Positions 6,647-22,918 of a stretch of 24,388 nt of DNA are shown here, piece after piece; position 1 is the first letter of the stretch, and each line of letters starts with the position of its first letter. This stretch comes from a virus. The position numbers and the translations under genes are program-made. The notes under the pieces are model-generated. The model was not told the origin of the DNA and searched no databases. It saw only the letters and a program-made list of their open reading frames with translations. The stretch lies in the IMG/VR virus record IMGVR_UViG_3300042691_002288, positions 1 through 24,388 of that record; one strand, 5' to 3'.

Positions 6647-7522
6647 TTAGGCTATCCTATAGCGAACTATTACAATACCGCTTCCGCCACCTGTTCCACT
6701 TCTAGTTCCACCACCTGAAGCAGCCCCAACTCCTCCGCCTCCACCACCACTATTTACAGCACCAGCAGAACCTACGTTTCCTCCACCTCTACCACCTACA
6801 CCACCTCCACCAGCACCTCCAGCAATGTTTGCACCCCAATCGTGACCAGCACCGCCACCACCGCCACCAGCATAATGAGTATTAGTACCAGTAATGGAAT
6901 TTGCTAAACCATCTCCACCAGCACCACCTGGTTGACTTTGGTTACCATCTGGTGCCTTACCACCTGGTGCACCTGCACCGCCACCTCCACCTGCACCATA
7001 TCCAGAAGTTCCGTTTCCTCCACCACCATTGTTTCCTTGACCAGCAGTTCCTTGAGCACTAGTCGTAGTGGAATGTGTGGCACCTCCACCTGATCCACCA
7101 GGAAGTCCACTTTGATTTTCTGTATGAGATGCACCACCACCACCACCTAATGCAACAATGTTATTAAAACTTGAATTTTGTCCGCTTTGTCCTCTACCGT
7201 TAGTAGCGTTTCCACCAGATCCAACAACAACGTTATAAGAACCAATTCCTAAACCTTGAGTTCCAAATAAATATCCACCAGCACCGCCTCCGCCACCAGC
7301 AGGCGTACTGCTGGTAATTCCACCACCTGCACCGCCACCTGCAACAATTAAATAATTAACATCTCCTGTGCCAGCAGTTATTTGAAATGTTCCGCTACCT
7401 GTAAATGTATGATATCTGTAGGTTATTCCACCTACTGTATAATCTGAGAATGCTCCACCAATTGCTACTATGTATGCTCCTGCTGGATTTTTTCCAATTG
7501 AATTTAATGAACTTATTGGCAT
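6647..7522 (-). CDS. glycine-rich tail adhesin, subtype I
   Basis: A 291-residue protein. Residues 1-56 hold an N-terminal region with TYRYHTFTGSGTFQITAG, then VNYLIVAGGGAGGG starts the glycine-rich domain at about residue 56. That domain runs to the end through many glycine runs separated by short variable loops and closes with SGIVIVRYRIA. The small-loop segments, such as GQSGQNSSFNN and GQGNNGGGG, recur in the paralogues. Its ATG overlaps the stop codon of the 111-aa small beta protein by one base, so its translation is probably coupled to it. The same arrangement occurs at 18026. Likely a receptor-binding tip with polyglycine-II packing by analogy with gp38-type adhesins; this is inference. 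Confidence 0.87.
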   Translation of the reverse strand: MPISSLNSIGKNPAGAYIVAIGGAFSDYTVGGITYRYHTFTGSGTFQITAGTGDVNYLIVAGGGAGGGITSSTPAGGGGGAGGYLFGTQGLGIGSYNVVVGSGGNATNGRGQSGQNSSFNNIVALGGGGGASHTENQSGLPGGSGGGATHSTTTSAQGTAGQGNNGGGGNGTSGYGAGGGGGAGAPGGKAPDGNQSQPGGAGGDGLANSITGTNTHYAGGGGGGAGHDWGANIAGGAGGGGVGGRGGGNVGSAGAVNSGGGGGGVGAASGGGTRSGTGGGSGIVIVRYRIA

Positions 7523-7857
7523 TAGTCTGCAGTCACCTCCGCGTATGATAATGTAAAACTAACATCGTTACTAGAGGCCCATACTGACATAACATCAGCA
7601 GCACCCATCGTAATTCCGTCTCCTAGTTGTATTGTGTCAAATGGAGAAACAGTTAAACCAAAAAATAAATAGTGTTTATTAACTATTGATTCACCCAATG
7701 GTCTTACTGCAATTCTTACTGAAGCAGATACGCTTCCTAAGTTACAAACGTGTATATTTGATACTACTGTTTGTGTGAGTGCTGGAACTGAATATAAAGT
7801 TGTTAATACTCCAGCAGATGGTATAACCTGAGCGGGCGACTTATAAACATTAGGCAT
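7522..7857 (-). CDS. small beta protein preceding a glycine-rich adhesin
   Basis: A 111-residue protein starting MPNVYKSPAQVIPSAG. I chose the ATG at 7857 because it forms a TAATG overlap with the upstream stop. The open frame extends upstream only through 21 tryptophan- and arginine-rich codons inside the previous gene, which look like shadow. The region QTVVSNIHVCN, then GESIVNKHYLFFG and QLGDGITMGAADVMSVW, matches the C-terminal half of the 189-aa protein at 18026-18595 (QTLISTITVTN, GETLSKKHYIAWG, LTLGLTITSGDKIVAF). The 115-aa protein at 19325 looks like a third relative. Alternating hydrophobic residues suggest a beta sandwich. It sits between a fibre and an adhesin and is coupled to both, so an adaptor or cap role is likely but unproven. 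Confidence 0.85.
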   Translation of the reverse strand: MPNVYKSPAQVIPSAGVLTTLYSVPALTQTVVSNIHVCNLGSVSASVRIAVRPLGESIVNKHYLFFGLTVSPFDTIQLGDGITMGAADVMSVWASSNDVSFTLSYAEVTAD

Positions 7858-9341
7858 TAGTATACTCCAAAGAATGGGTGAAGACCAGAGTCTCCGCCAC
7901 CACCAGAAACAGCGATCCACTTAGTTCCATTATACACTTTCAATTTGGGTGAAGTGATAGTTGTAGAATCAATCCATAGCGTACCAGGAACTGGTGAAGT
8001 TGGTGATGCTGATACATAAGGTATGTTTGGTTCAAAATCAAGACTAGCCACATTAAATGGCTTTAATCCAATAACTTCTAATATATCTCCAGAAACAATG
8101 GGGGTAGCAAAAGTAATAACAGTATTTGCTAATCTTGTATAGTCAATAACTGGGGTAAGTAAAATACCATTTAAATATACTTGTTCATATCCAGGAATAT
8201 AACTTAGAGTAGTTCCTAAATCATCTACCCCTGTAATTACAGAAGCACTTGATAGATAGGCTTTTCTCCATCTAGAATATTCATTATATTTAGAATCTAT
8301 TTGACCTTGAGTATATGTACTAACATTTGTAGAATTTTGATATGCATAAATATCTATAATTTCATTAGGCAATATTGGTTGATTTAAAGTAATTAAATTT
8401 GTATTAGTAGTAGTATATTCATTATTAGCAAGTAATACTCCATTTATGAATACTTGTTCATACCCTGGATTATATTGTAAACTATATAGATTATCATCAG
8501 ATCCAGTTATAGCAGTTGCTGATGCAGAGTATGTCTTTCTCCATCTAGTAAATGCCATACTTGCAGTTTTAGGAAGATAATTACTTACTGCATTTGCGAT
8601 TGTTAAGTAATCAGTGCTTGCAATAAATTGAGTTAAATATGTTGAAGAAGCAGAAGATTGAGTTAGGTAAGTTGATGATGCTGATGCTTTAGATAAGTAG
8701 TCTTGTGCTATTTGTGCTGGGGTGGTGTATGTTGATGATGCTGAAGACTGAGTTAAGTAGTTTGATGATGCTGAAGACTGAGTTAAGTATGTTGATGATG
8801 CTGAGGATAATGTAAGATAGTCAAGAAATTCTGGTTCAACAAAAGATGTACCATTAAAGTATTTTAAAACACCGTTATCTGAGTCAACCCAAAATGTTCC
8901 AACATTTATAAATGGATCAGAAATTGATGGATCTGCTGATTGATAAATTGCAGCACTATCACTTACGTTAGCCCATTTTAATCCATTCCACATGTGTGTT
9001 TTTTTAGTATCTGTTTCATATATGACCATTCCAATATTTGGATACCCTGGTCTTGTTACAGATGTAACGTAAACAAAAGGATTAAGTCTTAAGTAGTCAA
9101 GTCCCATTTGAACATTTGTTGCACTTGCTGAAGTATAAATTGAAGGACTGTAAGCAATTTGAGTTGCACTTGTTGCGGTGTAGTCTGGAGTTGCAGATGC
9201 TGCACTATTTACCCAAACTGTTCCAATTTCTACAATGTCTGGTTCTGATGCTTGATAAACAACCTTTGCTGTTGTTCCAAGCAAATTATCAACGGCGGGC
9301 TGCCAAGCAAGTCCGTCCCAAATATACATTGGTTTTGTCAT
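7857..9341 (-). CDS. tail fibre with 10-residue repeats and duplicated NGxLL domain
   Basis: A 494-residue protein. Residues 5-47 hold the opening module MYIWDGLAWQPA with GTVWVNS, and a second set is at 117-165 (MWNGLKW, GTFWVDSDNG). Residues 174-260 are a decamer repeat array of the form SSASSTYLTQ. Two copies of a domain of about 70 residues follow at 266-334 and 357-427, each with RWRK(T/A)Y, then PGYEQV, NG(V/I)LL and a final strand. The C terminus (439-494) is the module LWIDST, LKVYNGTKWIAVSG, then a short glycine stretch. These are typical phage fibre shaft and knob parts. The stop overlaps the start of the 111-aa gene. It leads a three-gene cassette that is repeated at 16998-19291. 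Probably a trimeric fibre. Confidence 0.92.
   Translation of the reverse strand: MTKPMYIWDGLAWQPAVDNLLGTTAKVVYQASEPDIVEIGTVWVNSAASATPDYTATSATQIAYSPSIYTSASATNVQMGLDYLRLNPFVYVTSVTRPGYPNIGMVIYETDTKKTHMWNGLKWANVSDSAAIYQSADPSISDPFINVGTFWVDSDNGVLKYFNGTSFVEPEFLDYLTLSSASSTYLTQSSASSNYLTQSSASSTYTTPAQIAQDYLSKASASSTYLTQSSASSTYLTQFIASTDYLTIANAVSNYLPKTASMAFTRWRKTYSASATAITGSDDNLYSLQYNPGYEQVFINGVLLANNEYTTTNTNLITLNQPILPNEIIDIYAYQNSTNVSTYTQGQIDSKYNEYSRWRKAYLSSASVITGVDDLGTTLSYIPGYEQVYLNGILLTPVIDYTRLANTVITFATPIVSGDILEVIGLKPFNVASLDFEPNIPYVSASPTSPVPGTLWIDSTTITSPKLKVYNGTKWIAVSGGGGDSGLHPFFGVY
8583..8822 (-). repeat. 30-bp in-frame repeats coding a 10-residue fibre repeat
   Basis: About eight consecutive 30-bp units in the same register code for decapeptides of the type TYLTQSSASS in the 494-aa fibre. 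Two plus-strand units (8731-8760 and 8761-8790) are almost identical, sharing TGATGATGCTGAAGACTGAG. The unit at 8701-8730 has diverged, and the flanking ones are degenerate. The repeats keep frame, so unit number can change without breaking the gene. Confidence 0.85.
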
Positions 9342-9357
9342 TTAATTCACCTTTTTC

Positions 9358-9363
9358 ATTATA
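9358..9363 (-). promoter_or_regulatory. TATAAT box, candidate promoter element
   Basis: The minus strand of the 25-base gap before the 494-aa fibre reads CTATAATGCTATAATGAAAAAGG. It contains two TATAAT strings in tandem; the first overlaps the stop codon of the lectin gene. The second lies about 17 bases upstream of the ATG. No -35 box is clear. Weak, but the same element recurs in other long gaps. Confidence 0.25.
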
Positions 9364-9366
9364 GCA

Positions 9367-10074
9367 TTATAGGCCATGTACGTTCCTTAAAGCATTAAAA
9401 TTATCAAAAATTTCTATATTTGATAAGGCACGATCATATACTCTAATGGTAGATATTCTACATTGTGAAAACTCTCCAGGATTTCCATTATGTATGTTAC
9501 AAACTTGAGCAGTAAAATTATTTGTAAATCCATTTTTAGAACCTGCTGGATTTCCATTTTTGTATGCATATGCTACTGAAGATTCTCTTTTTACTACAAT
9601 ATGATTCCAAGTATTTAAAGTTAAACCCCAACCAGCAGTTGACCCATAAGTATCAAAAGTTGGAGTATATAGATAAACCTGTCCACCTCCAGGTGATCCC
9701 ACATCTGCTTTTAAGGCTAATGTTGTTTGCAATGGAAAAGCAATCATGTGTGTATATTTTGTAAAATCTTGTGGATATATCCAACATTCTAGTGTAAAAT
9801 CTCCTGTACCAAAAGCAAACTTTGAGTTAGATGCTATTGTTGCAAAATCATCAGTTCCGTCAAATTGAATATAAGGTCTAGTTACCGTTGGACCATTTGT
9901 TAAAGTTGCATTTGTTGGACTTGCACTAAGATCTATCCATGTTGTACCAGATCCAGGGTATGAGTTAGAATTATTAGCATATAAGTTTAAAACAAGTCCA
10001 ATTGAAGATACTTTATATCTTGCATTTTTACTATAGACGCTATTATTGCCACCAAGAGTTGTTAAAGTAGGCAT
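9367..10074 (-). CDS. LamG / concanavalin A-like lectin domain fibre tip
   Basis: A 235-residue protein. After about 25 N-terminal residues it has the classic opening LVLNLYANNSNSYPGSGTTW and IDLS (27-50), then the strand IQFDGTDDFATIAS (69-82), GDFTLECWIYPQ (91-102), TLNTWNHIVVKRES (152-165) and ISTIRVYDRALSNIEIFDNF (207-226). This is the laminin G-like (Laminin_G_3) jelly roll, which fills almost the whole chain. Such domains bind carbohydrates and are common at phage fibre tips. It follows the 188-aa adaptor-like protein by eight bases with AAGGAG. Its first residues (MPTLTTLGGNNSVY) resemble those of glycine-rich adhesins in the same position, hinting at interchangeable tips. Lectin fold is firm; the ligand is unknown. 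Confidence 0.92.
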   Translation of the reverse strand: MPTLTTLGGNNSVYSKNARYKVSSIGLVLNLYANNSNSYPGSGTTWIDLSASPTNATLTNGPTVTRPYIQFDGTDDFATIASNSKFAFGTGDFTLECWIYPQDFTKYTHMIAFPLQTTLALKADVGSPGGGQVYLYTPTFDTYGSTAGWGLTLNTWNHIVVKRESSVAYAYKNGNPAGSKNGFTNNFTAQVCNIHNGNPGEFSQCRISTIRVYDRALSNIEIFDNFNALRNVHGL

Positions 10075-10082
10075 TGTTCTCC

Positions 10083-10649
10083 TTAAATATTTATACTGGC
10101 GTTACCAATAACTATCCAAGAGTTAGATCTTCTAATTATAGAAAAGTTATATATGTCTAATTTTCCAGCAAGGCTTGTTGGTACTGGGGCTACTCCACTT
10201 ACCCACTTTATAGTCTGTGTAACTCCGTTAACTTGAAGAGTAGAAACTCCATATCCAATATTTCCTTGTGGAATAATTAAAGATATTGTAGTTGATTTTA
10301 AATTAGTTGTAGGAACATTATCAACATTAAGTACAAAGTTTGAAGATGCACTATTTGACAAATAAAATAAAGCAGAATTATTAAAATCAGCATAACAAAG
10401 AGCACTTGGAGTTACAATAACATCTGTTATTTTTTCTATAATTTCAGATATTTCAAGTCTTCCAGTAACATCTACTGTATTTGTAAAAGATGCTGATGCT
10501 GTAGTTGTTGGGGGGTTAGAAATATTACTTACCCCAGATATATTATTAGTACCAATAGTATTATTAACAATAGTTGAATTATTACCTGATGATAATATAG
10601 GAATGTTTAATTCATAGTCATATTGATGATTGAGTTTATTTAATCCCAT
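10083..10649 (-). CDS. short fibre/adaptor protein paralogous to the 310-aa fibre
   Basis: A 188-residue protein. The first 60 residues are polar and asparagine/serine rich. Residues 62-80 hold VTGRLEISEIIEKI, a short helix-like link seen in the equivalent place in the 310-aa fibre. The C-terminal 90 residues match that protein's C-terminal domain: NVPTTN, QTIKWVSGVAPVPTS and SWIVIGNASINI. Both genes end with the same AATATTTAA stop context and both precede a tip gene, here the LamG lectin. I infer an adaptor that carries the lectin, or a shorter fibre end domain. The start has AAGGGG a few bases upstream, after a nine-base gap from the 1002-aa gene. Confidence 0.85.
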   Translation of the reverse strand: MGLNKLNHQYDYELNIPILSSGNNSTIVNNTIGTNNISGVSNISNPPTTTASASFTNTVDVTGRLEISEIIEKITDVIVTPSALCYADFNNSALFYLSNSASSNFVLNVDNVPTTNLKSTTISLIIPQGNIGYGVSTLQVNGVTQTIKWVSGVAPVPTSLAGKLDIYNFSIIRRSNSWIVIGNASINI

Positions 10650-10658
10650 ACCCGCCCC

Positions 10659-13600
10659 TTATGCCTGGGCTTCGGTCCAAGATAGTCGTGCTAGTACGTC
10701 AATTGAAGAGGAACCAGTATTTGTTACCACAAGTGTAAGAACATCTGGTCCGTCTGGATAAATATTTGTGTTAGCATTTGCTCCTCCACCACCCAAAACT
10801 GAGTTACCAAGATCTCGAACAGTTCCTAAATCTAGTGTTGATGTTCCTTGAGAAAGCAAACCAGCAGTTACTTCACCACCAGAAACTGTCGTTGATCCGC
10901 CAGCATAGTTTGCAATTTGTGCAAGACTTGAGTTTGCAATACCAGTTACGTTATTAATAGCGTTTGTCCATGTAGTTGCAGTGCTTGGAGTTCCGTTAAG
11001 TACTGCTGTTACAAGCATGTTTGCTGTAGCAGTTCTAGTTGTAATACCAAGTGATACTAAAACTAACTGCATTCTATTAACAAGTTCTCGTGTTCCAAAG
11101 TTTGCAGCAATACCATTATCTACAGATGGTGCTACTCGAATTGAAAGCAAGGCTCTTGAAGCACCTGCTGCAATGGCGGTATAAGATGTTTGACCATAAG
11201 TAAATACCAAAGACTTATCTTCGTCAAATCGTCCGTCCATAATAACGGAAGTTCCCCAATGTGATATTTGTGCAGCATATGATGGAAATGCTAATTCAAC
11301 CATTGTTGGAGATGTTGCAGATATTGTGAATGCTTGTGGACTTGCCATACCCATTGGTGCAAATAACACTCCAGTTGGATTTGTTGCAGTTGCTGCTTGA
11401 GTAAATGTTAATGTTGTTCCACTAATTGCTGAAACATAAGTTCCATCTGGAAAATCTGGACTAATAACTCTTTGACCAATTTGAATACCTGATGTACTTG
11501 CCACAACACCAGTATTTGTACCATTTGTAATTGAAACTGTTACTCCACCTGTTGATCCAGCCTGTGCTCTTGTTAATCCAGTGAATGATGTTGTTGTTTT
11601 TCCTGCATAATTGATATATTCATATTTAGAACCATCTCTTACGCACAATGTTCCACTAGGTGGAAAGTTTGCGGTACTAGTTACATAAATTGCAGTATCA
11701 GTATTTGAAGCACTTGATGTTAAATTTGTATAAATTGTATCTGTTGAAGATTCGTAACGTGCTGGAAGGTTTCCAGAACGCATATATGCTTCGCTATTAA
11801 TATTATTGTTAGGAGTTTTGTGAACATAAGTTACGTTTCCATCTCTTCCACGAACACCGTATCTAACATATCCTGCACCATACCATGAATAATCAATGTA
11901 AAACATTTGCATTTTTGATAAATCTAAAATCATTCCAGATGGACCAGTTCCATCCATTTTATCAATATTCCATTGTGATTGAGGAACTTTTGTATCTACA
12001 GTTCTTGAAACTATAGCAAATTGAGTTGTTGTTCCTCTATATGAAGGTGTAATTGTCATACTTGTATCACTTTCAATACTTTGAACTTTATAAGATACCC
12101 CACGAATTACCAAGTAGTCTCCAACGTTAAGTTGTCTTGCAAAAAATGTTGGGAATGAAGAATCTGTTTGTGTAACTGTATTTGAATTATTTGTAGCAGT
12201 TACTCTTCCAGAAATTTGGAATGTAGAGTTTCTACGAACTGCGTAAAGTTCTTGTCCATTAAATTCAAAGAATAATCCGTTTTGATTATCAAAAATTCCA
12301 AGTTTGTTTGAGCATCCGTACCATGAAAGCACTGCTGCATAGTAAGGTCCTTGACCTACTGATGATGTTGGAACTGTTGGAAGTGTATATTGAAATTTAT
12401 TATATCCAACGATAGATGTTACTGTAAAATCTCCATTATATACTGGGTCAGTACATCCAGCAATTCTAACTATAACTCCTGGCTGTAAATTGTGTTGATC
12501 TTTTGTTTGAACTGTTACGGTTTGTCCAACTGTAGTAATTGAGTCAAGTTGAAGATTTGGTTTTAAAATTGTTCCTGAAGACATTTGCATACCTTTACCT
12601 GATTGGTAACGGAAATAACGTCTTGTTTGACGAATTGCTTGTTCATTATTTGAGTTAGCGTTTGCTGAAAATACTACTCCACCGTCAAATGGTCTGTGTA
12701 AAAATTGTGCTTTTGGAACTACATAAACCGTTGCTGCTGCACCAGACAATGTTCCAGTTGGTGCTGCTAATGTATAGTAAGTAAATTGTGTTGGGCTTGT
12801 AATTGTACAAACTGGAAATGTTCCATTAGGTGCATTTGTTGTAGCAGTTGCTCCAATAATGCTTACTTCGTTTCCAATTGCTAATCCATGAGGTACTGTT
12901 GTTGTAACAGAAATTGCTTGACCAGCATAAGACATTGTTGGTGCTCCACCAATTGGTGCACCTGTATAAATTAAACCTGAATAAATAACTGTTTTATTTG
13001 CATCAAGTATTGATGAAACTCCGCTTGAGTTAACCGCTCTACCAGTGTATGTAAATGAACTTGTTCCTCCACCAGATTCTATTGTGAAGTTTCCATTAGC
13101 AATTGAAAGATATGTATCATAAACAGATATTGATGTACCATTTGCTGGTGCTGTGCCACTTGACAATGTAACTGTAACTACTCTTGAGTTTGTATTCATT
13201 GTTATTGCTGAAACGTTTGGAACTGGTGCTGGTGATGTATATGCAAATGGTCTTTGATTTATTAAGCCAAGATTTTCCCATTTTGAAACTTGTGGACCGT
13301 ATTCAAAGTCAGTATCGATAAGTGCTTGTGGAGTTGTTACTCTAAGTTTGTTTGTTGAATCTAGATATGCTTCTGATGGAGTAAATCTTTCTTCATATTC
13401 ATCAACTAAAATAGATAATTTATCTGTTGATGACATGGCTGCTGTATTATAATTTAATACAACTGATGTTCTATCTTCCATAGTAGGTGTAACTGATGCT
13501 GAGACTGTGCCTCTTAAACTTGGATCTGAAAAGTTATAAATTACAATGTTTCTAGTTACGTTAGTTATTAAAACTAATCTTTCTGCTGGTACATATTGAG

Positions 13601-13667
13601 GGAATGTTACTGTCTTTGTTGCTGGGTTAAATGTATAACCTGTTTCAAATATTACTTTTCTTGCCAT
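10659..13667 (-). CDS. large virion structural protein (myovirus type)
   Basis: A 1002-residue protein, the largest in the window. Residues 112-143 contain TPQALIDTDFEYGPQVSKW and ENLGLINQRPF. Residues 322-360 contain FLHRPFDGGVVFS and TRRYFRYQSGKG, and 565-606 contain WNIDKMDGTGPSG and FYIDYSWYGAGYVRYGVRG. I recognise these blocks from large structural proteins of aquatic T4-like phages, whose precise place in the tail is not established. Inserted between them are beta domains with HGL or HNL, then NGxFxV and FxYxL (about 250-310 and 380-430, perhaps a third near 155-212). A FPPSGTLCVRDGSKYEYINY segment lies near 668-687. The C terminus has a glycine-rich turn and beta strands. It lies among fibre genes, three bases after the 299-aa fibre. 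Confidence 0.9.
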   Translation of the reverse strand: MARKVIFETGYTFNPATKTVTFPQYVPAERLVLITNVTRNIVIYNFSDPSLRGTVSASVTPTMEDRTSVVLNYNTAAMSSTDKLSILVDEYEERFTPSEAYLDSTNKLRVTTPQALIDTDFEYGPQVSKWENLGLINQRPFAYTSPAPVPNVSAITMNTNSRVVTVTLSSGTAPANGTSISVYDTYLSIANGNFTIESGGGTSSFTYTGRAVNSSGVSSILDANKTVIYSGLIYTGAPIGGAPTMSYAGQAISVTTTVPHGLAIGNEVSIIGATATTNAPNGTFPVCTITSPTQFTYYTLAAPTGTLSGAAATVYVVPKAQFLHRPFDGGVVFSANANSNNEQAIRQTRRYFRYQSGKGMQMSSGTILKPNLQLDSITTVGQTVTVQTKDQHNLQPGVIVRIAGCTDPVYNGDFTVTSIVGYNKFQYTLPTVPTSSVGQGPYYAAVLSWYGCSNKLGIFDNQNGLFFEFNGQELYAVRRNSTFQISGRVTATNNSNTVTQTDSSFPTFFARQLNVGDYLVIRGVSYKVQSIESDTSMTITPSYRGTTTQFAIVSRTVDTKVPQSQWNIDKMDGTGPSGMILDLSKMQMFYIDYSWYGAGYVRYGVRGRDGNVTYVHKTPNNNINSEAYMRSGNLPARYESSTDTIYTNLTSSASNTDTAIYVTSTANFPPSGTLCVRDGSKYEYINYAGKTTTSFTGLTRAQAGSTGGVTVSITNGTNTGVVASTSGIQIGQRVISPDFPDGTYVSAISGTTLTFTQAATATNPTGVLFAPMGMASPQAFTISATSPTMVELAFPSYAAQISHWGTSVIMDGRFDEDKSLVFTYGQTSYTAIAAGASRALLSIRVAPSVDNGIAANFGTRELVNRMQLVLVSLGITTRTATANMLVTAVLNGTPSTATTWTNAINNVTGIANSSLAQIANYAGGSTTVSGGEVTAGLLSQGTSTLDLGTVRDLGNSVLGGGGANANTNIYPDGPDVLTLVVTNTGSSSIDVLARLSWTEAQA

Positions 13668-13670
13668 TTG

Positions 13671-14570
13671 TTAGCCTCCCAGCATTATATCTGTTGCTTT
13701 GAACGGATATATCCTGTTTCTTGTAGTTGTTGCCGAACCCATCATTATCCTAGCATCGAACGTTGATCCAGCGGGTGGTCTTTCTGAAAATGCAATGTAC
13801 CCTTCTGAGTCTATCATAAATCCGTCTCTAGGAAGCATTGACTGCCAGACGTATTCGGGAAAGTCTACTGTTTGTATTATACCATTAATCGTAAGTAATA
13901 GTCTATATGGGTTTGCAAGATTTACTATTTCTCCTCTATATGTTGGATAAAATCTACTTTCTATACCGTCAAATTTCCATTTCAAATCATCTAATGGAAT
14001 TATGTCGTCATCTACAAATAAAGATATTTTATTATTAACATCGTCATAATTTACAGATACCCCCGCAGTTGAGGCACTTGCGAATAGTGAGGCAATAAGG
14101 TCTTGAATAAATTCTTGTCCAGATGATCCGTAGTTAACATATTGTGAAGATGCACTTTGTTTGCTTAGGTATTCTGCTGAGGCACCAGTCTTACTTAGAT
14201 AGTTTGAAGATGCTGTTGTATTAGATAAATAGTTTGTTGTAACATTATTTGATAGTGTTACTAAAGAAGAGTTTATAGCACTTACAGATGCACTATTAGA
14301 GTTAGTAAAGTTAAATAGTTCAGTGCTTGTTGCAAAGCCTGCTGAAGCAGCAATTAATTCTGTTAAATCAGTATGTGTATGGTCTGAACCACTTATTTCA
14401 GAATCGGCATCTACCCATAGCAAGCCTATTTTAGGATCAGATGGTGATGCTGATGAATATGAAACATATGTATAGTTACCAACGTTTGTTATATCATTTA
14501 CAGGAATCCATTGTGATCCAGACCACACATAGGCTGGTCTAGTTGTTAAGGATATAGTTGCTGAGGCCAT
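13671..14570 (-). CDS. tail fibre with HTHT motif and conserved C-terminal domain
   Basis: A 299-residue protein. Residues 10-23 hold the opening module TRPAYVWSGSQWIPV, with GLLWVDADSE at 49-58. SGSDHTHTDLTELI at 60-73 contains an HxH motif like those that bind metal in T4 fibre proteins. Residues 110-160 hold a short decamer array (NYLSNTTASS, EYLSKQSASS). The last 110 residues are a distinctive domain: RFYPTYRG, YRLLLTINGIIQ, FPEYVWQSMLPRDGF and IYPFKATDIMLGG at the very end. I recall this end domain from aquatic myovirus fibres. Its ATG overlaps the stop of the assembly chaperone by one base, so chaperone and fibre are made together. Probably one client of that chaperone. Confidence 0.9.
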   Translation of the reverse strand: MASATISLTTRPAYVWSGSQWIPVNDITNVGNYTYVSYSSASPSDPKIGLLWVDADSEISGSDHTHTDLTELIAASAGFATSTELFNFTNSNSASVSAINSSLVTLSNNVTTNYLSNTTASSNYLSKTGASAEYLSKQSASSQYVNYGSSGQEFIQDLIASLFASASTAGVSVNYDDVNNKISLFVDDDIIPLDDLKWKFDGIESRFYPTYRGEIVNLANPYRLLLTINGIIQTVDFPEYVWQSMLPRDGFMIDSEGYIAFSERPPAGSTFDARIMMGSATTTRNRIYPFKATDIMLGG

Positions 14571-14968
14571 TACGCATCTTCTCCTGGAACTGTATCTGTA
14601 ATAAAGTCTTCATCTTCTGGTCTGACTTCTCCAGGAAACCTAGGAAAATCAACGTAGGCAGGAAATTCTGTATTGGCTGGTAAATCCCTTAAGGCTCTTC
14701 TGTAAGTCGTCCATTCAGCCCTTAATTCCTCTGTAATAGGTGCGTCTGCTATCTGAGTCCAATCACAATTTAATAATCTTTTATTTCTTTCCTGTCTTAA
14801 TGTTTCCCATCTAATAATATTAGTTTTTTCAAAATTTATAATTTGATCTACCTTGATATCTAATTCTTCATCGGTATATTCAATTGGATTACCAAGTGAA
14901 TCATAACTTATATTATTAATTAAGTTAGTTCTGGCAATCTCTCTTAGTTCTATTTCTTTTTCAGTCAT
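14570..14968 (-). CDS. phage tail-fibre assembly chaperone (Phage_tail_APC-like)
   Basis: A 132-residue protein. Residues 54-97 hold the family signature: RWETLRQERNKRLLNCDWTQ, then ADAPITEEL, then WTTYRRALRDLP. After this comes a proline-rich end (FPAYVDFPRFPGEVRP). This matches the small chaperones thought to fold or load tail fibres, as encoded next to fibre genes in many phages. Residues 1-50 are an added charged, partly helical segment. It sits between the three tandem glycine-rich adhesins and the 299-aa fibre, two bases after the former and overlapping the latter. No Shine-Dalgarno site is visible, so translation probably depends on the upstream gene. It is the only chaperone-like gene among more than 20 fibre and structural genes. 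Confidence 0.87.
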   Translation of the reverse strand: MTEKEIELREIARTNLINNISYDSLGNPIEYTDEELDIKVDQIINFEKTNIIRWETLRQERNKRLLNCDWTQIADAPITEELRAEWTTYRRALRDLPANTEFPAYVDFPRFPGEVRPEDEDFITDTVPGEDA

Positions 14969-14970
14969 AA

Positions 14971-15972
14971 TTAAAATGAAGTAGGATTAGTAAAACCAAA
15001 TCTTACTATAACTACCCCACTACCCCCTTTTCCTGCTGAACCACTTGGACTTGCATGCGATCCGCCACCGCCGCCGCCTAAACCATCTGTACCATTTCCT
15101 GGAACTACGTTTGGACTATGGCTTGCACCATTTCCTCCTCCACCAATTCCACCTGTAGAACTTGCAGTATGTCCATGTCCGCCACCACCACCTGAATAAT
15201 GTGTTGCTGTACCAGTAATACTATTTACTTGTCCTGGTCCACCTGGTCCACCGTTATTTCCACTAACAGTAGTTCCAACTCCACCTGCACCACCTCCACC
15301 ACCGCCACCCCATGATGAGTGATGATATCCTCCACCACCATAATTTCCTTGACCTAATTGAGCAGAACCACCGTGACCTCTTCTTTCTCCTGGTGTATCT
15401 CCACCTGCAGAGGAATTTCCCATTGCACCACCTCCACCAGAACCACCTGGTGTTCCATTACCATAAGCACATTGATAATTACCACCACCGCCACCACCTA
15501 TGGCCATTAAATGCATAAATGATGAATTACCACCTGGAACTCCTGGAGAGTTGCTACTATAAGGTCCAGAAGCACCTCCTGCACCAACCGTTATTAGTGT
15601 ACTATTTGTATCTACTAAAATACCAGACTCGTAAATATAACCACCGCCGCCACCGCCACCACCGTGATGATTTCCTCCACCACCGCCACCACCAATTATT
15701 AATACGTCTGCATATGCACCAACAAATGGTGATAAATCTACAGTTTGTGAACCTGTATTTGTAAATGATTTATATGCAAACCAACTTGCACCTGATGCGT
15801 AAGTTATCCAACCATAATTTTGAATCCATTGAATAAATGTTGGACTTGCACTAAATATTTGTGTTTTTGAAACACCTTGATTAATTTTTGTTGTAACAAA
15901 TCTATATAAGGCTGGATTTGCTCCAGCAGGCAAAACACTTGCTAATTCAGAAGTAGAAAAATTATCTGGCAT
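14971..15972 (-). CDS. glycine-rich tail adhesin, subtype II (third of a tandem triplet)
   Basis: A 333-residue protein. Residues 5-85 are an N-terminal domain shared with the next two upstream genes: FSTSELASVLPAG, LYRFVTTKINQGVSK and GWITYASGASWFAYKSF. Then ADVLIIGGGGGGGNHHGG starts the glycine-rich domain near residue 88, which ends SGVVIVRFGFTNPTSF. It has unusually many histidines in the loops (NHHGG, YHHSSW, GHGHT), and poly-glycine tracts of up to seven or more. The start overlaps the stop of the preceding adhesin by one base. GGC codons are frequent in the glycine tracts, though the genome is AT rich. Likely a receptor-binding tip; which of the three is displayed is unknown. Confidence 0.88.
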   Translation of the reverse strand: MPDNFSTSELASVLPAGANPALYRFVTTKINQGVSKTQIFSASPTFIQWIQNYGWITYASGASWFAYKSFTNTGSQTVDLSPFVGAYADVLIIGGGGGGGNHHGGGGGGGGYIYESGILVDTNSTLITVGAGGASGPYSSNSPGVPGGNSSFMHLMAIGGGGGGNYQCAYGNGTPGGSGGGGAMGNSSAGGDTPGERRGHGGSAQLGQGNYGGGGYHHSSWGGGGGGGAGGVGTTVSGNNGGPGGPGQVNSITGTATHYSGGGGGHGHTASSTGGIGGGGNGASHSPNVVPGNGTDGLGGGGGGSHASPSGSAGKGGSGVVIVRFGFTNPTSF

Positions 15973-16997
15973 TATCCAATACCCCCTGGAGAATAAACAA
16001 TTTGAGTCCTAATAACAACTATACCAGTTGCACCAGAGCCGCCTCTAATACTATTACTATGACCGCCACCACCGCCACCACCGCCACTATTTGGAGCAGC
16101 AGCAGCGTGAGCATTAACAAAAGATGGATGCGTTAGTCCCAATCCTCCGCCACCTATTCCACCAGTTCCACCAAAGTATGCATGAGACCATCCACCACCT
16201 CCACCTGCAAACCATCTTGTATAACCTAAAATTGTATTTGATAAACCATTTCCACCAGCACCACCAGAGTCGTTTCCAAGTCTACCGACACCAGTAGATC
16301 CAGCACCTCCACCGCCACCACTAGGGTATCCTATACCAGCGTGCCAACCTGAACCACCATGATTTCCTTGACCAGTTACTGCATATCCAGGAGTTGATAC
16401 TTGACTGTTTGATTGCCAAGTAAAGTTATTTCCGTTACCACTAGAGTGTCCGATTGATCCACCACCACCTGATCCACCAGCAGAACCAGAGCCAACATTG
16501 CTATAAGTTCCACCACCTCCACCACCTATTGAAATTATGTCGTCAATAACTGAGTTTGAACCATTTGAACCTCTTGCATTTGATTGACTTGCCATGGCAC
16601 CAAGGCCGCCTTCACCAACTGTAATAGAAATATTAGATTTATTAAAAACCTTTGTTGTTAAGCGATATCCTCCTGCTCCACCACCACCACCATGTTGTCC
16701 GCCACCTCCACCTCCACCTGCAACACATAAAACATCAAAAGTGTTTTTTTCAAATGGTGTTATTGTTGTAGTTGTTGTTCCAGCAGTATTAAATTCTTTA
16801 CATGCATAAAATGCGTTTGATTGAAAATATATTTTCCATCCAAGTGATTCTAGATAATTTAAATAACTTATACCGTCATATGTTTTTGTTCTAGTAAAAT
16901 CATTTTGCATTGCATATGAGAAATATCTATATACCCCGCTAGTATTTCCATTTTTTAATAATGCAGTAACGTCATCAGAAGTGTAAATTTCTGGCAT
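15972..16997 (-). CDS. glycine-rich tail adhesin, subtype II (second of a tandem triplet)
   Basis: A 341-residue protein. The N-terminal domain (residues 4-87) matches its two tandem neighbours in layout: YTSDDVTALLKNG, VYRYFSYAMQNDFTRTK and SLGWKIYFQSNAFYACKEF. The glycine-rich domain begins FDVLCVAGGGGGGGQHGG near residue 87 and ends TGIVVIRTQIVYSPGGIG. Its loops differ strongly from the neighbours in length and residues. One loop is aromatic (WFAGGGGGWSHAYFGG), and a run of eight glycines lies near the end. The gene begins immediately after the stop of the preceding adhesin with no gap. The pattern points to tandem duplication followed by loop divergence. Confidence 0.88.
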   Translation of the reverse strand: MPEIYTSDDVTALLKNGNTSGVYRYFSYAMQNDFTRTKTYDGISYLNYLESLGWKIYFQSNAFYACKEFNTAGTTTTTITPFEKNTFDVLCVAGGGGGGGQHGGGGGAGGYRLTTKVFNKSNISITVGEGGLGAMASQSNARGSNGSNSVIDDIISIGGGGGGTYSNVGSGSAGGSGGGGSIGHSSGNGNNFTWQSNSQVSTPGYAVTGQGNHGGSGWHAGIGYPSGGGGGAGSTGVGRLGNDSGGAGGNGLSNTILGYTRWFAGGGGGWSHAYFGGTGGIGGGGLGLTHPSFVNAHAAAAPNSGGGGGGGGHSNSIRGGSGATGIVVIRTQIVYSPGGIG

Positions 16998-18026
16998 TTA
17001 GATTGACCCCGCTGGGAAAGATAGTGGGAATCTTACTACTACAACTCCAGAGCCGCCATGTCCACCCATAAATGATACAGACCATCCTCCACCACCACCG
17101 CCACCAGTATTTGCTATGCCATCACTTGCTTTATACATATATGTACCACCAAAACCTCCACCACCATTACCACCTGTTCCTCCAGGATTTGATTCACCAC
17201 TTCCACCACCGCCACCGCCAGCATAAAATTTAGTAACTCCAGTTATTGAGTTTGATAATCCTCCACCACCTGCTCCACCTCTACTTCCTGTTCCCCAAGA
17301 ACCGTCAGCACCTGCAGCACCTGCACCTCCACCACCGCCACCTACGTGGTTACTATCATGTCTTCCACGACCACCATTATTTCCTTGACCAGAAGTTCCA
17401 GTACCACCATTACTCCAAGTAGATCCTGAAGGTCCAAGAGATCCTCCACCACCAGATCCACCAGCAGAACCATTTCTTGTTGGGTCTCCAGACCAAGCAC
17501 CTCCACCTCCACCACCAATTGCTGTTATTGATCCAAAAACAGAATTTTGACCATTAGCACCTCTAATATCTGTTGCTTGAACACTTAAACCACCATTTCC
17601 AACTGTTACTGTTTGATTACCGCTTACTGCAACATTTGTTTCATATCTATATCCACCAGCACCGCCTCCACCTGCGTGATGTGAACCACCTGCACCACCA
17701 CCTGCTACAACAAGAACGTCAGCATTTGTTCCATTAAAAGGACCAGCATTCCAAGTTGTTGTACCACTTGTAAATTCTTTATATGCAAAATAATTTCCAG
17801 AAGAATCTCTATATGTTGTATAACCATTAGAAGCAATATAATCTAAATACTGAGTACCAGATAATATATTTGCCTTTGTTTTACCCTGGCTAATTGCCCA
17901 TGCAACATATGAAAATGTTGCGGGTGGTGAACTAATTGGAATTATATTTGCTAATTCTGAATATGAAAATAAAGTTTGACCTACTGAACTACTTCCTGTA
18001 GTTCCTCTTATACTATTTACAGCCAT
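16998..18026 (-). CDS. glycine-rich tail adhesin, subtype II (first of a tandem triplet)
   Basis: A 342-residue protein. After a 17-residue leader (MAVNSIRGTTGSSSVGQ) comes the subtype II N-terminal domain: FSYSELANIIPIS, FSYVAWAISQGKTK, then YTTYRDSSGNYFAYKEF, ending near residue 103. ADVLVVAGGGAGGSHHAGG starts the glycine-rich part, which ends SGVVVVRFPLSFPAGSI. The leader is absent from the other two members of the triplet and resembles the start of fibre-type genes, so it may be the original docking peptide. Its ATG overlaps the stop of the 189-aa small beta protein by one base, repeating the arrangement at 7522. Receptor-binding tip by analogy with gp38-type adhesins. Confidence 0.88.
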   Translation of the reverse strand: MAVNSIRGTTGSSSVGQTLFSYSELANIIPISSPPATFSYVAWAISQGKTKANILSGTQYLDYIASNGYTTYRDSSGNYFAYKEFTSGTTTWNAGPFNGTNADVLVVAGGGAGGSHHAGGGGAGGYRYETNVAVSGNQTVTVGNGGLSVQATDIRGANGQNSVFGSITAIGGGGGGAWSGDPTRNGSAGGSGGGGSLGPSGSTWSNGGTGTSGQGNNGGRGRHDSNHVGGGGGGAGAAGADGSWGTGSRGGAGGGGLSNSITGVTKFYAGGGGGGSGESNPGGTGGNGGGGFGGTYMYKASDGIANTGGGGGGGWSVSFMGGHGGSGVVVVRFPLSFPAGSI

Positions 18027-18595
18027 TAGACTATTTCTCCCCCAAATAAAGATATAGCAATATTTGGAGCACCAAATGCCACTATCTTATCTCCTGATGT
18101 AATTGTTAATCCTAAAGTTAATGAAATCTGATCTCTTGCTAAAATACCTGGTCCCCAGGCTATATAATGTTTCTTGCTTAAAGTTTCCCCAGTTTTAACT
18201 ACTGCTATAAAGAATGTTCCGTCTGTATTTGAACAGTTTGTTACTGTTATTGTTGAAATTAATGTTTGAGTACTTGGTGAGGCTGGACATGTGTAGATAA
18301 TTGTTTCTGGAACATAGGCAACGCTAGCACCAACAGTTGCTGCTGTTACTACGTTACTTGCAGTTACTGGGTATGTGAAAGAAGTATTATTTGGTACAGT
18401 AGAAACATCTTGATTACCATTAAATATTGCATCAATTCCTGTTACTGTTACATAGTTTCCTTCAACAATGTTATGTGATGTTGCTGTTGTTAGAGTTACA
18501 AGATTACTTGTTAAGTTTCTAAATGAAATGGCTCTTGATTCTGTGGTTAAAAGAGTTTGACCTAAAATCTTTAAGGTTTTTACTTGTTGTGCCAT
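18026..18595 (-). CDS. small two-domain beta protein preceding a glycine-rich adhesin
   Basis: A 189-residue protein. Residues 20-95 form an added domain with LTTATSHNIVEGNYVTVTGI, FNGNQDVSTVPNNTSFTYPV. This is the same HNL/NGxF/FxY pattern found in the 1002-aa structural protein. Residues 98-189 (QTLISTITVTN, GETLSKKHYIAWG, LTLGLTITSGDKIVAF) match the whole 111-aa protein at 7522-7857. The gene is thus that small protein with an extra N-terminal beta domain. It lies between the 231-aa fibre (no gap) and the first of the triplet adhesins (one-base overlap), just as its shorter relative lies between a fibre and an adhesin. Likely a linker or adaptor in a fibre tip; inferred from context. Confidence 0.85.
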   Translation of the reverse strand: MAQQVKTLKILGQTLLTTESRAISFRNLTSNLVTLTTATSHNIVEGNYVTVTGIDAIFNGNQDVSTVPNNTSFTYPVTASNVVTAATVGASVAYVPETIIYTCPASPSTQTLISTITVTNCSNTDGTFFIAVVKTGETLSKKHYIAWGPGILARDQISLTLGLTITSGDKIVAFGAPNIAISLFGGEIV

Positions 18596-19291
18596 TTATA
18601 CTCCCATAAGCAGTAGCGTGTCAAAAATATCCCCGCCGCCGCCAGCACCTGACATTTCAATCCAGGTACTTCCATTATACACTTTCAATATCGGTGCTTC
18701 TGCTTCTGTTGTATCGATCCAAAGTTGTCCAGTTGCAATTTGATATGCAGGAGATGAAGTATTATAGGTAATATTAGGTTCATATGTAGCAGACGCTGCT
18801 GTTACTGTTAAATATGTTGCTGAAGCATTGGCGGTAGAAAGAATACTCATTACATCTTGATTAGTCCATTGAGTAGAAGAAGAATTATATGCTAATAATT
18901 GATTATTTGAAGGGGAAGCAATAGTGCTATCTGTAAGACTATTTAAATTTGTAATTGTAGAAGATATTGTTAATGTATTTGTAGCACTAGCAGCATTTAA
19001 AGTAATGCTTGTTCCTGCTTCTATATTTATATTATCAAAATCTGAATCTGCTAATATTTGTTGTGTTGCTGGAGTTGTTGTGATGTATCCAAAACCATGA
19101 GGATTAACTATTCCTGTACCTAGATAATCGTTACTATCTACCCAAACTGTACCTACATCTAAAGCACTAACGTCTGGTTGATTTGGTTGATATAGTACTG
19201 CATCATTTCTTGTTTGAGTAATTGGTACCCAGTTAGTTCCATTCCAGACATATGCTGGTCTAGTAGTATCTAGTATTTGTGCCGAAGACAT
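18596..19291 (-). CDS. tail fibre with WNGTNWVPI opening and KVYNG ending
   Basis: A 231-residue protein. Residues 9-52 hold the opening module TTRPAYVWNGTNWVPI with GTVWVDSND. Residues 73-115 (TPATQQILADSDFDN, then GTSITLNAASATNTLTI) are closely similar to residues 62-99 of the 659-aa fibre. A short decamer repeat (ANASATYLTVTAASATYEP) follows. The C terminus carries QLWIDTTEAEAP, LKVYNGSTWIEMSG and a glycine run, as in the 494-aa fibre. It is in effect a short version of that fibre without the duplicated NGxLL domains. The ribosome binding site is AAAGGAG at slightly long spacing. It heads a cassette of fibre, small beta protein and glycine-rich adhesin. Confidence 0.9.
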   Translation of the reverse strand: MSSAQILDTTRPAYVWNGTNWVPITQTRNDAVLYQPNQPDVSALDVGTVWVDSNDYLGTGIVNPHGFGYITTTPATQQILADSDFDNINIEAGTSITLNAASATNTLTISSTITNLNSLTDSTIASPSNNQLLAYNSSSTQWTNQDVMSILSTANASATYLTVTAASATYEPNITYNTSSPAYQIATGQLWIDTTEAEAPILKVYNGSTWIEMSGAGGGGDIFDTLLLMGV

Positions 19292-19674: not shown

Positions 19675-20016
19675 TTACCTCTTTACCATTGTATCATTTT
19701 TTCTAGGGTATGGTATTTTTAACTCATCTAGTCTTTTGGCTGCATGAATGTCACTACCTTTTCCATAGTATGTTGAATCTATCTTTCTATTTATAACTAC
19801 CATATAAAATTCAGCATATGGCATCCATGATGCATATACTCCACTAGAACCTTTTTCTGCAATTACTTCCCAAATATCAATATCTTCTATTTGTAATTCT
19901 CTTTTATAATCCCATTTTGGATTTGGGGGAAGTGAATTTTTTTGGTTATTCCAATTTTCATCAAAATAATCTGTACAATCTGTAAATATATCTTTACTTG
20001 TTCTAAAAAGTGGCAT
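19675..20016 (-). CDS. conserved phage protein of unknown function
   Basis: A 113-residue protein starting MPLFRTSKDIFTDC. It contains KWDYKRELQIEDIDIWEVIA at about 34-53 and YASWMPYAEFYMVVINRKID at about 61-80. A lysine-rich end has YGKGSDIHAAKRL and the final residues MVKR. I recall related small proteins in aquatic myovirus genomes, with the TSKDIF start and the PYAEFYM core, but no known role. Unlike its neighbours it is not beta-repeat rich, and its charge pattern suggests a soluble, mixed alpha/beta domain. It overlaps the stop of the glycine-rich adhesin before it by one base. It may help assemble or attach that adhesin, but this is speculation from position. Confidence 0.8.
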   Translation of the reverse strand: MPLFRTSKDIFTDCTDYFDENWNNQKNSLPPNPKWDYKRELQIEDIDIWEVIAEKGSSGVYASWMPYAEFYMVVINRKIDSTYYGKGSDIHAAKRLDELKIPYPRKNDTMVKR

Positions 20017-20939
20017 TATATTGCATACCTAACTATTATTACTCCACTACCGCCAACAGACGAAACTTCTCCACTACCGTGTCCAGATCCACCACCGCCA
20101 CCGCCAAGACCATTTGTTCCAGCAACTCCTCTTCCACCTTCACCTCGACCATCTCCTCCACCACCAGTTCCTCCATTTCCATGACCATTCCATGCCATAC
20201 CGTTATGACCACCACCGCCTCCACCACCAGCGTAAAATGTTCCAAAGAATGATCTACCAGATCCGCCATTACCATTTCCACCAGTTGAGTTTGTGTTATT
20301 TGAATTTACGCCTGCTGCACCAGCACCGCCTCCACCACCAGAACCATGTGCTTGACTTCCTGTATTATTAAAAAGTGAATTTCCGTTGCCACCAGCATGT
20401 CCATAACCAATTCCACCAGTAGATCCTTGTATTGTATTTCCACCTAAACAACCTACGTGTGCTGCACCACCACCTGGTCCTCCACCTCCACCTGAACCGC
20501 CATCTCTTCCTGAAGTCCTGTTATTATTTGTACCAGCACCGCCTCCACCACCTACTGCTATTAATCCAGAAAATGTTGAGTTTGAACCACTTGCTGCTGG
20601 ACCAAAGTACATGTTAGATTGTGATATTCCACCAGCACCCACTGTTATTGCATAGTTTCCAACATTTCCATTTACTGATTGTGATGATACGTAAAGTATT
20701 CCACCACCACCTCCACCACCTGCGTGTGATCCAGCACCTGCACCACCACCAGCAACTAATAATATTTCAATATCTTTTGATCCATTTCTAACTGTAAATA
20801 CATCTGGACCAGTTGCTTGAAATGTGTGTATTTTAAATTGTCCAGCATATGATATTGCTCCACCAACTGCATCAAATGTGCTATTTTCTTCTATTTTTGA
20901 TATTTGTCTACCTGATAAAAATCTTTGTATACCGCTCAT
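20016..20939 (-). CDS. glycine-rich tail adhesin, subtype I with histidine
   Basis: A 307-residue protein. Residues 1-58 have a short N-terminal region with FKIHTFQATGPDVFTVRNG, then IEILLVAGGGAGAGSHAGG starts the glycine-rich domain near residue 58. That domain runs to the end and closes SGVIIVRYAI. The HTF and FxVxxG pattern before the glycine entry groups it with the genes at 1526 and 6647, but the SHAGG after the first glycine run is shared with the triplet at 14971-18026. It may thus be intermediate or recombinant. The start overlaps the stop of the 659-aa fibre by one base, so fibre and adhesin are probably produced together. Likely receptor-binding tip. Confidence 0.88.
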   Translation of the reverse strand: MSGIQRFLSGRQISKIEENSTFDAVGGAISYAGQFKIHTFQATGPDVFTVRNGSKDIEILLVAGGGAGAGSHAGGGGGGGILYVSSQSVNGNVGNYAITVGAGGISQSNMYFGPAASGSNSTFSGLIAVGGGGGAGTNNNRTSGRDGGSGGGGGPGGGAAHVGCLGGNTIQGSTGGIGYGHAGGNGNSLFNNTGSQAHGSGGGGGAGAAGVNSNNTNSTGGNGNGGSGRSFFGTFYAGGGGGGGHNGMAWNGHGNGGTGGGGDGRGEGGRGVAGTNGLGGGGGGSGHGSGEVSSVGGSGVIIVRYAI

Positions 20940-22918
20940 TATGCAAACATCCTCCCTGCAATTATTGCTTGGCTATCATCAACAGCAGCACCAAGTTGAA
21001 CCCATGCACTTCCATTATAAACTTTTAATGCAGGTGGTTGACTATTTGAATCTACCCACATATCTCCAGTGTTAGGAGTTGATGGTTCAGAAGTAGAATA
21101 AGGTATTACTTTTTCATATTGAGTAGAAGCACTAGACTGTGTAAGATAAAGATCTAATATATCTGCATTATCATTTAATGCCTCTGCTAATTCATTTAAT
21201 GTGTTTAATGCTGCTGGTGCACCATCTATAAGATAATTAACTGCTGCAGCACTTGCTGTTTGAATTGTTGAAGATAAATCTATACTTGCTAACTGAGTAC
21301 TAGTGTAAGCACTTGCTGAATTAAAAGCATTAGCACTTGCTGATCTTGCATAAGCCTGACTTGCATATTGCAATAAACTTTCTGCATTATTTAATGTAAT
21401 AAGTTTTGATTCATTGAATCTAACATCGTTATTTGAATCTATTGTTATTGGAATATTAGTATTTGAGTTAGGAGATTTAATGTATAAAGAGTTTGGTCCA
21501 AGATATAAATCTTTTACTCTAAAAGCACTTGATCCTACTGAGTAAATGTTGTCTGCATCTGGTAATAGATTTCCATAATTATCTTCTAGCCAAAATGTTA
21601 ATTGATTTACATATGGAGCAGAACTTCCACTATACCCCACAGAAGCGTTGCTATCTACCCAGATATCACCAATGGAAAGTTGACTTGTATCTGGTTGCTC
21701 TGTTGAATATATTACAGAAGCACCATCACCACCTGCACCACCTCCACCAGTTCCTACTAATATAATTTGATTACTTGCTGAGTTGTATGAAGCAGTAATA
21801 TTTGTATGATTTCCATGTACCAATGCTGTTGATGCAGTAGTTAGTCCTCTTGTATTTGTATAATATAAATTACTACCCTCTTCAATATCAGAAGTAGTTA
21901 AAGCATTTATTTGAGAATCGGTATAGGCACTTGCAGAGCCGTAAGCGGCAACTGAGGCGGTATTTATAATATTTTGTTTAGGACTATTTAACCATAAAGA
22001 AGAAGCAGAATTCCATATAACAATATCTCCATCTGCAACTGAAGTAATTCTTACATCATGTAATTCATCTAATTCATACCCATTTTGTGGTTTTACATAT
22101 ATTCTTCCTGAAACAGCATTTTTCTTTAATACTACCCCGACAAATACATAATGATTAGGTGCTTGTGGTTTTACAGTTGAGAGCACTCCAGCACTAGCAG
22201 ATAGATATAATATATCTCCTTCATTAAATGCATTTGTATTAATATTTTTTATTATACCTTGGGTAACAACAAATCCTTCTCCACCCGCAGTAATATTTTC
22301 TGCAACTATACCTATGGTTAGTGCTGATCCAGTATCATTTAAATTATATGCTCTTGTAACTTGTGGTCTTTGACCTTGAGCACCTGAAAGTTTTACTACT
22401 TCGCCTTTATTTAATGTGGTTGCTTCACCATTATTGGCAAGAATAATAATTTCTTGACCTAGACCAACATTTACTTGTCCGTCAAGTTGTATAGATAATG
22501 TAGAATCTCCAGAATCCCAAGCAATAGTTCCTACAGAAGCAGATGTGCTTTCTGGGGTAGTGTCAAAAGCAATGTAGTCTGGATATTGAATAGAATCTAC
22601 GTTGGTATAATTACCAGTTGAGTTAATTGTTATTGAGTCAGAAGCACTTGCTGCTGTAATAGATATATTCTCTCCAGCAATTAAAGTTAATGTGTCTCCT
22701 GTTGAGTCTGCAACTATTGTTTCTGTTGCTGGACTAGTTTGAATATTTAAAAATGCAGATCCAGATCCACCACCACCTTGTAATTCTTGCCATGCACCGT
22801 TTACATAAATTTTTATAGCATCTATAGTTGTATTAAAGTAAACCTGACCTTCGACACCATTTGCTGGGTCGGAAGGTAGGCTAACTAAACCTATGGGTGT
22901 TAAAAAATTCTTTGCCAT
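20939..22918 (-). CDS. long tail fibre, multi-module
   Basis: A 659-residue protein. Seen in order: an opening module GQVYFNTTIDAIKIYVNGAW (24-43); SPATETIVADS with ENISITAASASDS (62-95); a domain at 162-285 with NKGEVVKLSGAQGQRPQV, GDILYLSASAGVL and GYELDELHDVRI; the fibre motif LTTSDIEEGSNLYYTNTR (340-357); a glycine break (390-400); GDIWVDSN (417-424); IYSVGSSAFRVKDLYLG (458-474); an alanine/serine helical stretch (515-560); GAPAALNTLNELAEALND (566-583); a decamer SSAST repeat; and the closing module MWVDSN with LKVYNGSAWVQLG. All are widespread phage fibre elements. A 58-base gap with a TATAAAAT box and a hairpin lies before it; the ribosome binding site is AAGGA. Confidence 0.93.
   Translation of the reverse strand: MAKNFLTPIGLVSLPSDPANGVEGQVYFNTTIDAIKIYVNGAWQELQGGGGSGSAFLNIQTSPATETIVADSTGDTLTLIAGENISITAASASDSITINSTGNYTNVDSIQYPDYIAFDTTPESTSASVGTIAWDSGDSTLSIQLDGQVNVGLGQEIIILANNGEATTLNKGEVVKLSGAQGQRPQVTRAYNLNDTGSALTIGIVAENITAGGEGFVVTQGIIKNINTNAFNEGDILYLSASAGVLSTVKPQAPNHYVFVGVVLKKNAVSGRIYVKPQNGYELDELHDVRITSVADGDIVIWNSASSLWLNSPKQNIINTASVAAYGSASAYTDSQINALTTSDIEEGSNLYYTNTRGLTTASTALVHGNHTNITASYNSASNQIILVGTGGGGAGGDGASVIYSTEQPDTSQLSIGDIWVDSNASVGYSGSSAPYVNQLTFWLEDNYGNLLPDADNIYSVGSSAFRVKDLYLGPNSLYIKSPNSNTNIPITIDSNNDVRFNESKLITLNNAESLLQYASQAYARSASANAFNSASAYTSTQLASIDLSSTIQTASAAAVNYLIDGAPAALNTLNELAEALNDNADILDLYLTQSSASTQYEKVIPYSTSEPSTPNTGDMWVDSNSQPPALKVYNGSAWVQLGAAVDDSQAIIAGRMFA

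Follow-up and report, generated by a model that had tools for sequence, protein, structure and literature searches.

Our analyses point to a tailed-phage receptor-binding unit, encoded twice in the viral DNA studied here, in which a small jelly-roll protein probably constitutes the joint between the C-terminal tail of a fibre and the N-terminal leader of a separate tip protein. This reading draws on the order and homology of the genes, on predicted folds, and on how the parts are conserved and co-vary; from them we infer the docking and oligomeric state of the parts, their presence in the virion and binding to the host of this virus.

The window, i.e. the whole stretch of DNA that was analysed, is the complete virus record IMGVR_UViG_3300042691_002288, a linear fragment of 24388 bases in which 28 genes were called. 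One, at the left end, codes for a carbamoyltransferase, and the other 27, many of them fibre-like, lie on the minus strand. The carbamoyltransferase (137-1264) adjoins fibre genes, as it does in the cyanophages P-SSM2 and S-CAM1. Near relatives of the window virus are G001 (80.7 kb), G003 (56 kb), G004 and G002, while a scan of genome contigs yielded no relative and named no prophage or host. Judged by portal kinship together with head and tail gene order, G001 is Stanwilliamsviridae-like, the window itself being without head genes: its portal protein shares 54% identity with those of Streptomyces phages of this family, and its order of ribonucleotide reductase followed by portal, protease, capsid, tail tube and tape measure is that of phage Comrade. 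On these sequence grounds, the window virus is most likely a siphovirus.

Each cassette of the window comprises a fibre gene, a small gene and a glycine-rich gene (Table 1). As described by the first-pass annotation, this order is present twice, all six reading frames are open at the tabulated coordinates, and the two small proteins are related (BLASTP E 1e-9, 33% over 81 aa, among the 28 window genes); residues 97-188 of S189 also matched a profile of 45 small-family sequences with an HHalign probability of 98.8%. Two further arguments for the unit held good as observations but carried less weight. The fibres F231 and F494 do match at their opening and over their C-terminal 53 aa (53%, E 2.5e-12), but neither motif is specific to the cassettes: two further window genes (13671-14570, 4221-4478) have WNG-type openings, and another, the fibre gene 20939-22918, has the LKVYNG ending, so that motifs shared with fibres outside the cassettes add little. 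Similarly, the adhesin genes do start within the stop codon of the small genes (one-base TAATG overlaps at 18026 and 7522, and at 7857 between fibre and small gene), which adds little because one-base overlaps occur at 8 of the 26 junctions between neighbouring minus-strand window genes. A candidate additional member of the small family, S115 (19325-19672), picked by eye, found no support in profile comparison (E 0.4, HHalign 0.4%).

Table 1. Coordinates of cassette components and of other fibre and tip genes in the window
Feature	Position	Strand	Details
Fibre F659	20939..22918	-	directly precedes GLY6, no small protein between
Glycine-rich GLY6	20016..20939	-	Pfam
Fibre F231, cassette one	18596..19291	-	231 aa; counterparts in G001, G003
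F231 C-terminal tail, residues 224-231 (DTLLLMGV)	18599..18622	-	tail score 9.8, highest among 28 window genes
Small protein S189, cassette one	18026..18595	-	189 aa; jelly-roll family plus putative inserted domain
S189 residues 97-188, jelly-roll family	18032-18307	-	profile comparison
Glycine-rich tip GLY5, cassette one	16998..18026	-	PF21722 E 3e-21
GLY5 leader, about 19 residues	17970..18026	-	without counterpart in tandem neighbours GLY4, GLY3
Glycine-rich GLY4, tandem paralogue	15972..16997	-	Pfam, BLASTP, tree
Glycine-rich GLY3, tandem paralogue	14971..15972	-	Pfam, BLASTP, tree
Fibre-like gene with 166-aa domain of 2314-3246	10083..10649	-	BLASTP; then LamG lectin
LamG lectin	9367..10074	-	PF13385 E 1e-16
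Fibre F494, cassette two	7857..9341	-	494 aa
F494 C-terminal tail, residues 487-494 (LHPFFGVY), HPF form	7860..7883	-	similar tails in other viruses
Small jelly-roll protein S111, cassette two	7522..7857	-	AlphaFold2 pLDDT 90.6
Glycine-rich tip GLY2, cassette two	6647..7522	-	AlphaFold2 pLDDT 92.1; Pam3 fibre Z 15.9
GLY2 leader, about 14 residues	7481..7522	-	residues 2-13 pLDDT under 50
Fibre-like gene, 166-aa C-terminal domain in common with 10083-10649	2314..3246	-	E 4e-29; then GLY1
Glycine-rich GLY1	1526..2305	-	Pfam

Glycine-rich genes in the window number six rather than two, three of them in tandem in cassette one, and all six passed the curated cut-off of PF21722 (Gly_rich_2; 42-88 bits vs 24.3). 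NCBIfam families sought for eight proteins gave no assignment. The gene 2314-3246 and GLY1 form, by their sequences, a putative second kind of fibre/tip pair. The place of F659 and GLY6 is occupied in G001 and G003 by a single chain comprising a fibre and a glycine-rich domain; the LamG lectin locus is kept in G003, G001 having a glycine-rich gene instead. The 1002-aa protein (10659-13667) has counterparts in two other contigs (L119, L121), located after a small gene with a one-base overlap, which carry a leader at their start and appear without its first 100 residues. Two neighbouring genes (4877-5563 and 5587-6645) share a common 38-aa start (45%) with different bodies, and the G001 counterpart of the former keeps this start at 92% with a different body.

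Both window cassettes are retained in G001 and G003, the small gene of cassette two in G003 being detected by profile search, and G004 has one cassette. A third, beyond the carbamoyltransferase and outside the reach of the window, occurs in G001 (214-aa fibre, 109-aa small protein, 248-aa glycine-rich protein) and G003. Between the window and G001, identity in cassette two drops along the unit from the fibre (92%) to the small protein (79%) and the glycine-rich protein (54%); for F231 it amounts to 94% in G001 and 89% in G003. The proposal that one cassette was copied from the other and diverged was not borne out: a tree that holds both small proteins together in one clade was neither favoured nor rejected (p-AU 0.46), and a single small-protein clade for the three cassettes of the relatives was rejected (p-AU 0.009, for a group named after the tree had been seen). 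In the tree of the tips, GLY5 groups with its tandem neighbours GLY3 and GLY4 and not with GLY2. These three form one set with counterparts in G001 and G003, with GLY2 outside, and the tandem array therefore predates the split of the three viruses. A simple duplication of the cassette, at first thought likely, is not decided by the trees.

The search of viral genomes proposed as a check by the first-pass annotation recovered the same three-gene order in many other viruses. Scans of viral contigs in the first survey gave 138 loci, in 132 of which the small gene was called; throughout the surveys, identical cassettes were counted once. Where a small gene had a downstream gene, this was glycine-rich in 76/138 cases, vs 98/1669 other genes, and overlapped it by one base in 101/138. 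A further survey with the phiPsal1 protein as query gave 80 loci, including a group (L174-L192) with a glycine-rich downstream gene in 13/15 and 61 loci of pelagiphage-like setting (L193-L253) with none. In the latter, homologues of the small protein lie between a gene mostly of 400-735 aa and a short one mostly of 60-120 aa, and probably have another virion role. A fourth scan, using the family alignment as query, confirmed at least 563 of 600 stretches among the matches listed; 4/80 contigs already in earlier sets were left out, and in the 76 new contigs, again among the matches listed, the downstream gene was glycine-rich in 22/81 cases and overlapped by one base in 50/81. Downstream genes of other types include a roughly 190-aa family, collagen-like proteins, DUF285 and repeat proteins, so that the glycine-rich tip is one tip among several. 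The originally described unit therefore stands as regards the order of fibre, small protein and tip, and proved narrower than what is seen, as the tip need not be glycine-rich.

Among known phages, the arrangement occurs in phiPsal1 and in the isolated Planktophila phages E7 (L014) and F5 (L013), the latter two carrying a fibre, a 108-aa small protein and two glycine-rich genes. In E7 and F5, a hypervariable island that contains two collagen-like proteins along with a portion of the tail fibre has been described as possibly involved in host recognition, no joint being proposed in the portion of that account available (PMC10202952). A looser arrangement with an extra gene in between is found in the cyanophages P-SSM2 and S-CAM1. 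A tblastn search of phage records with GLY5 gave no match at E 1e-5. In phiPsal1 (L012) an unannotated 298-aa glycine-rich reading frame (8298-9194) lies directly after the small gene, CDS 022 and 023 being annotated within it in another frame. Contigs with two cassettes number at least seven. The serial order fibre, small protein, 167-aa segment, small protein, glycine-rich protein was found in L152, and also in L153, and from its sequence reads as if joints were used twice within one fibre. In L064 a single reading frame (3698-4831) comprises a small protein and a glycine-rich domain without leader, and was not counted as evidence because it comes from one short contig that may be misassembled.

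The AlphaFold2 model of S111 is a single jelly roll (pLDDT 91, rounded). Its fold matches include nucleoplasmin-type domains (Z 10), Ena pili (Z 9.8), the KHP40 cement protein (7dou, Z 9.2) and the HFTV1 turret (8qpg, Z 9.1), likenesses that are, as far as the model goes, generic, and a fold search of predicted viral proteins returned phage proteins in large number, with virion structural and tail fibre-like among their names. S189 has a first strand (KILGQ), a putative inserted domain at about residues 14-96 that is similar to a segment of the major tail proteins of Microbacterium phages, and then the jelly-roll family part. Two small-type domains also stand at the start of a fibre-like protein in S-CAM1 and P-SSM2, the weaker of each pair being marginal. 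A sequence search of solved structures gave no convincing match for either GLY5 or the small family. The GLY2 model, with a disordered leader, matched Pam3 gp24 (Z 15.9 and 15.3; 2.4 Å over 184 residues, 27% identity) and the tail tip chain Q of mycobacteriophage Bxb1 (PDB 9d93, Z 15.0), a resemblance in the fold of the glycine-rich domain; the next-best matches reached only 7.5. Within the glycine-rich tips the glycine positions are constant and the intervening stretches variable, a pattern also described for gp38 tips.

Fibres upstream of a small gene carry a hydrophobic C-terminal tail (FLLMGA, LMLGGM, HPFLLGGM and similar). The first pattern was drawn up after inspecting these tails; a profile trained on loci L027-L106 gave an AUC of 0.85 on the remaining loci, where 24/47 upstream genes and 6/518 other genes exceeded the 99th percentile of the latter group. 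A fixed rule derived from the first-survey tails was then applied to the later sets, and was matched by 14/38 upstream genes vs 14/369 others in the phiPsal1 survey and, among the matches listed in the fourth scan, by 33/45 vs 81/481, these 81 including other segments of fibres that end alike as well as chance matches. The pelagiphage-like loci lack the tail, except that a few dissimilar ends match the rule, and the F494 tail fails the strict rule and has a low score in the trained profile. In three loci (L284, L288, L298) several short fibre-like genes follow one another, all with the same kind of hydrophobic tail. A leader profile of the downstream genes gave an AUC of 0.82, with only 19/52 above the 99th percentile. 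BLASTP alignments of GLY4 and GLY3 start at GLY5 residues 19-20.

Across 33 loci of one clade, median pairwise identity was 0.91 for the small protein and 0.70 for the leader, vs 0.47 for both the remainder of the tip and the whole fibre. In 72 pairs with small proteins 85% or more alike and tips of different class, the leaders retained a median identity of 0.68 and the tip bodies 0.28; leader identity was 0.18 in pairs with small proteins under 45%. Coupling was assessed outside L193-L253, which have no tips. In a five-part joint analysis, the small protein was linked most strongly, by partial correlation, to the tail (0.48; 0.45 out of sample) and next to the leader (0.28; 0.16 out of sample). 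The pN/pS ratio was 0.14 for the fibre tail and the small gene, 0.41 for the first-tip leader and 0.45 for the second-tip leader, against 0.92 for unaligned tip codons taken as control. Phage kinship is only incompletely removed in all these comparisons.

The unit of shaft, linker and tip first suggested from the window thus fits conservation, co-variation and folds, its origin by simple duplication being unsupported. The hydrophobic tail of the fibre would dock on the small protein, the short leader of the tip would dock on it too, and the folded tip, glycine-rich or other, would bind the host. Since only tail, joint and leader would have to match, tips would be exchangeable and several units per phage possible. 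Covalent forms of such a joint may be seen in the single-chain fibre and glycine-rich proteins of G001 and G003, the small-type domains of the S-CAM1 and P-SSM2 fibre-like proteins and the L152 series. Counting against it are the 61 pelagiphage-like loci that have the small protein and neither tail nor glycine-rich tip, the pairing of F659 with GLY6, the departure of F494 from the strict tail rule, the weakness of the leader coupling out of sample, incompletely controlled phage relatedness and, among the matches listed in the fourth scan, both the low share of glycine-rich tips and the other genes meeting the tail rule.

Similar designs are already known, according to the portions of the reports at hand, from gp37 with gp38 and Pam3 gp24 with gp25. 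Pam3 gp24 (PDB 7ypx, 7yfw) resembles GLY2 in combining a TNF-like with a glycine-rich host-binding domain, and Pam3 is there described with one fibre protein, which has a helical domain for docking, and with gp25, a chaperone in the form of a helical bundle (PMC9608196). The cassette differs in that fibre and tip are separate proteins, accompanied by one of jelly-roll fold, and in that the tip carries a short leader: instead of an N-terminal helical docking domain of the gp24 type, GLY2 has about 13 disordered residues with no helix of 4 or more. The gp38 adhesins of T2-type phages, S16 and PP01 likewise are separate tip proteins at the fibre end, with a glycine-rich frame, hypervariable loops and an N-terminal part that sets fibre compatibility, although the gp37/gp38 design as presented in the available part of that source has no intervening small protein (PMC12892980). 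The gp38 family was absent among Pfam matches at E 0.1, and S16 gp38 from the fold lists, an absence that does not exclude likeness. Haloarchaeal hafunavirus adhesins share, at the level of description, a glycine-rich tip, a hypervariable region tracking host range and an adjacent small-protein gene, but the available description names the adhesin gene before the small one (PMC8651126). A joint of the kind proposed here was not described in any title or abstract of the open-access papers searched, within the search terms used.

The comparison with Pam3 raises the alternative of a chaperone role in fibre assembly, with the small protein capping the end of the fibre and departing before virion maturation. 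The small gene adjoins the fibre gene, and gp25 was undetected in Pam3 virions according to the consulted portion of that study (PMC9608196); however, the S111 model is all strand bar short helical turns near residues 53-62, one jelly roll without the C-terminal helical trimerisation domain of Tfa and gp25, small-type domains are built into cyanophage fibre-like proteins, and several homologues are named virion structural proteins, if by record label only. We regard this role as unlikely. A location of the cassette on the head, as head fibres or capsid decoration, seems to us improbable to a like degree: the resemblance of the jelly roll to cement and turret proteins of phages, the presence in F659 of a Pfam domain of cement type and weak head-category PHROG matches of the fibres speak for it, but that resemblance is generic in the model, the cassettes of E7 and phiPsal1 lie among tail and lysis genes, and those of the cyanophages adjoin genes named tail fibre.

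The hypervariable tip position and a leader coupling partly shared with fibre and tail would also suit a mobile island of tail genes, in which neighbourhood is all that unites the parts and the common leader is a recombination junction with no docking role. Purifying selection on leader and tail at high synonymous divergence argues against this, as does the leader of the second tandem tip, also conserved despite variable flanks, and we consider such an explanation quite improbable.

Beyond the window, the jelly-roll joint may possibly represent a plug-and-socket standard, an extension that we advance tentatively, in which the fibre tail fits one side and the tip leader the other. Such a standard would be used, sometimes serially, by unrelated aquatic phages (actinophages and cyanophages), with types of tail and leader matched to their joints, and with several tips carried and exchanged independently. 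For phages of aquatic bacteria that are abundant but hard to grow, host range can mostly not be read from the genome. If the joint marks the start of the tip gene, tips would become findable in metagenomes whatever their fold, and the isolated Planktophila phages allow a direct test of the proposed joint.
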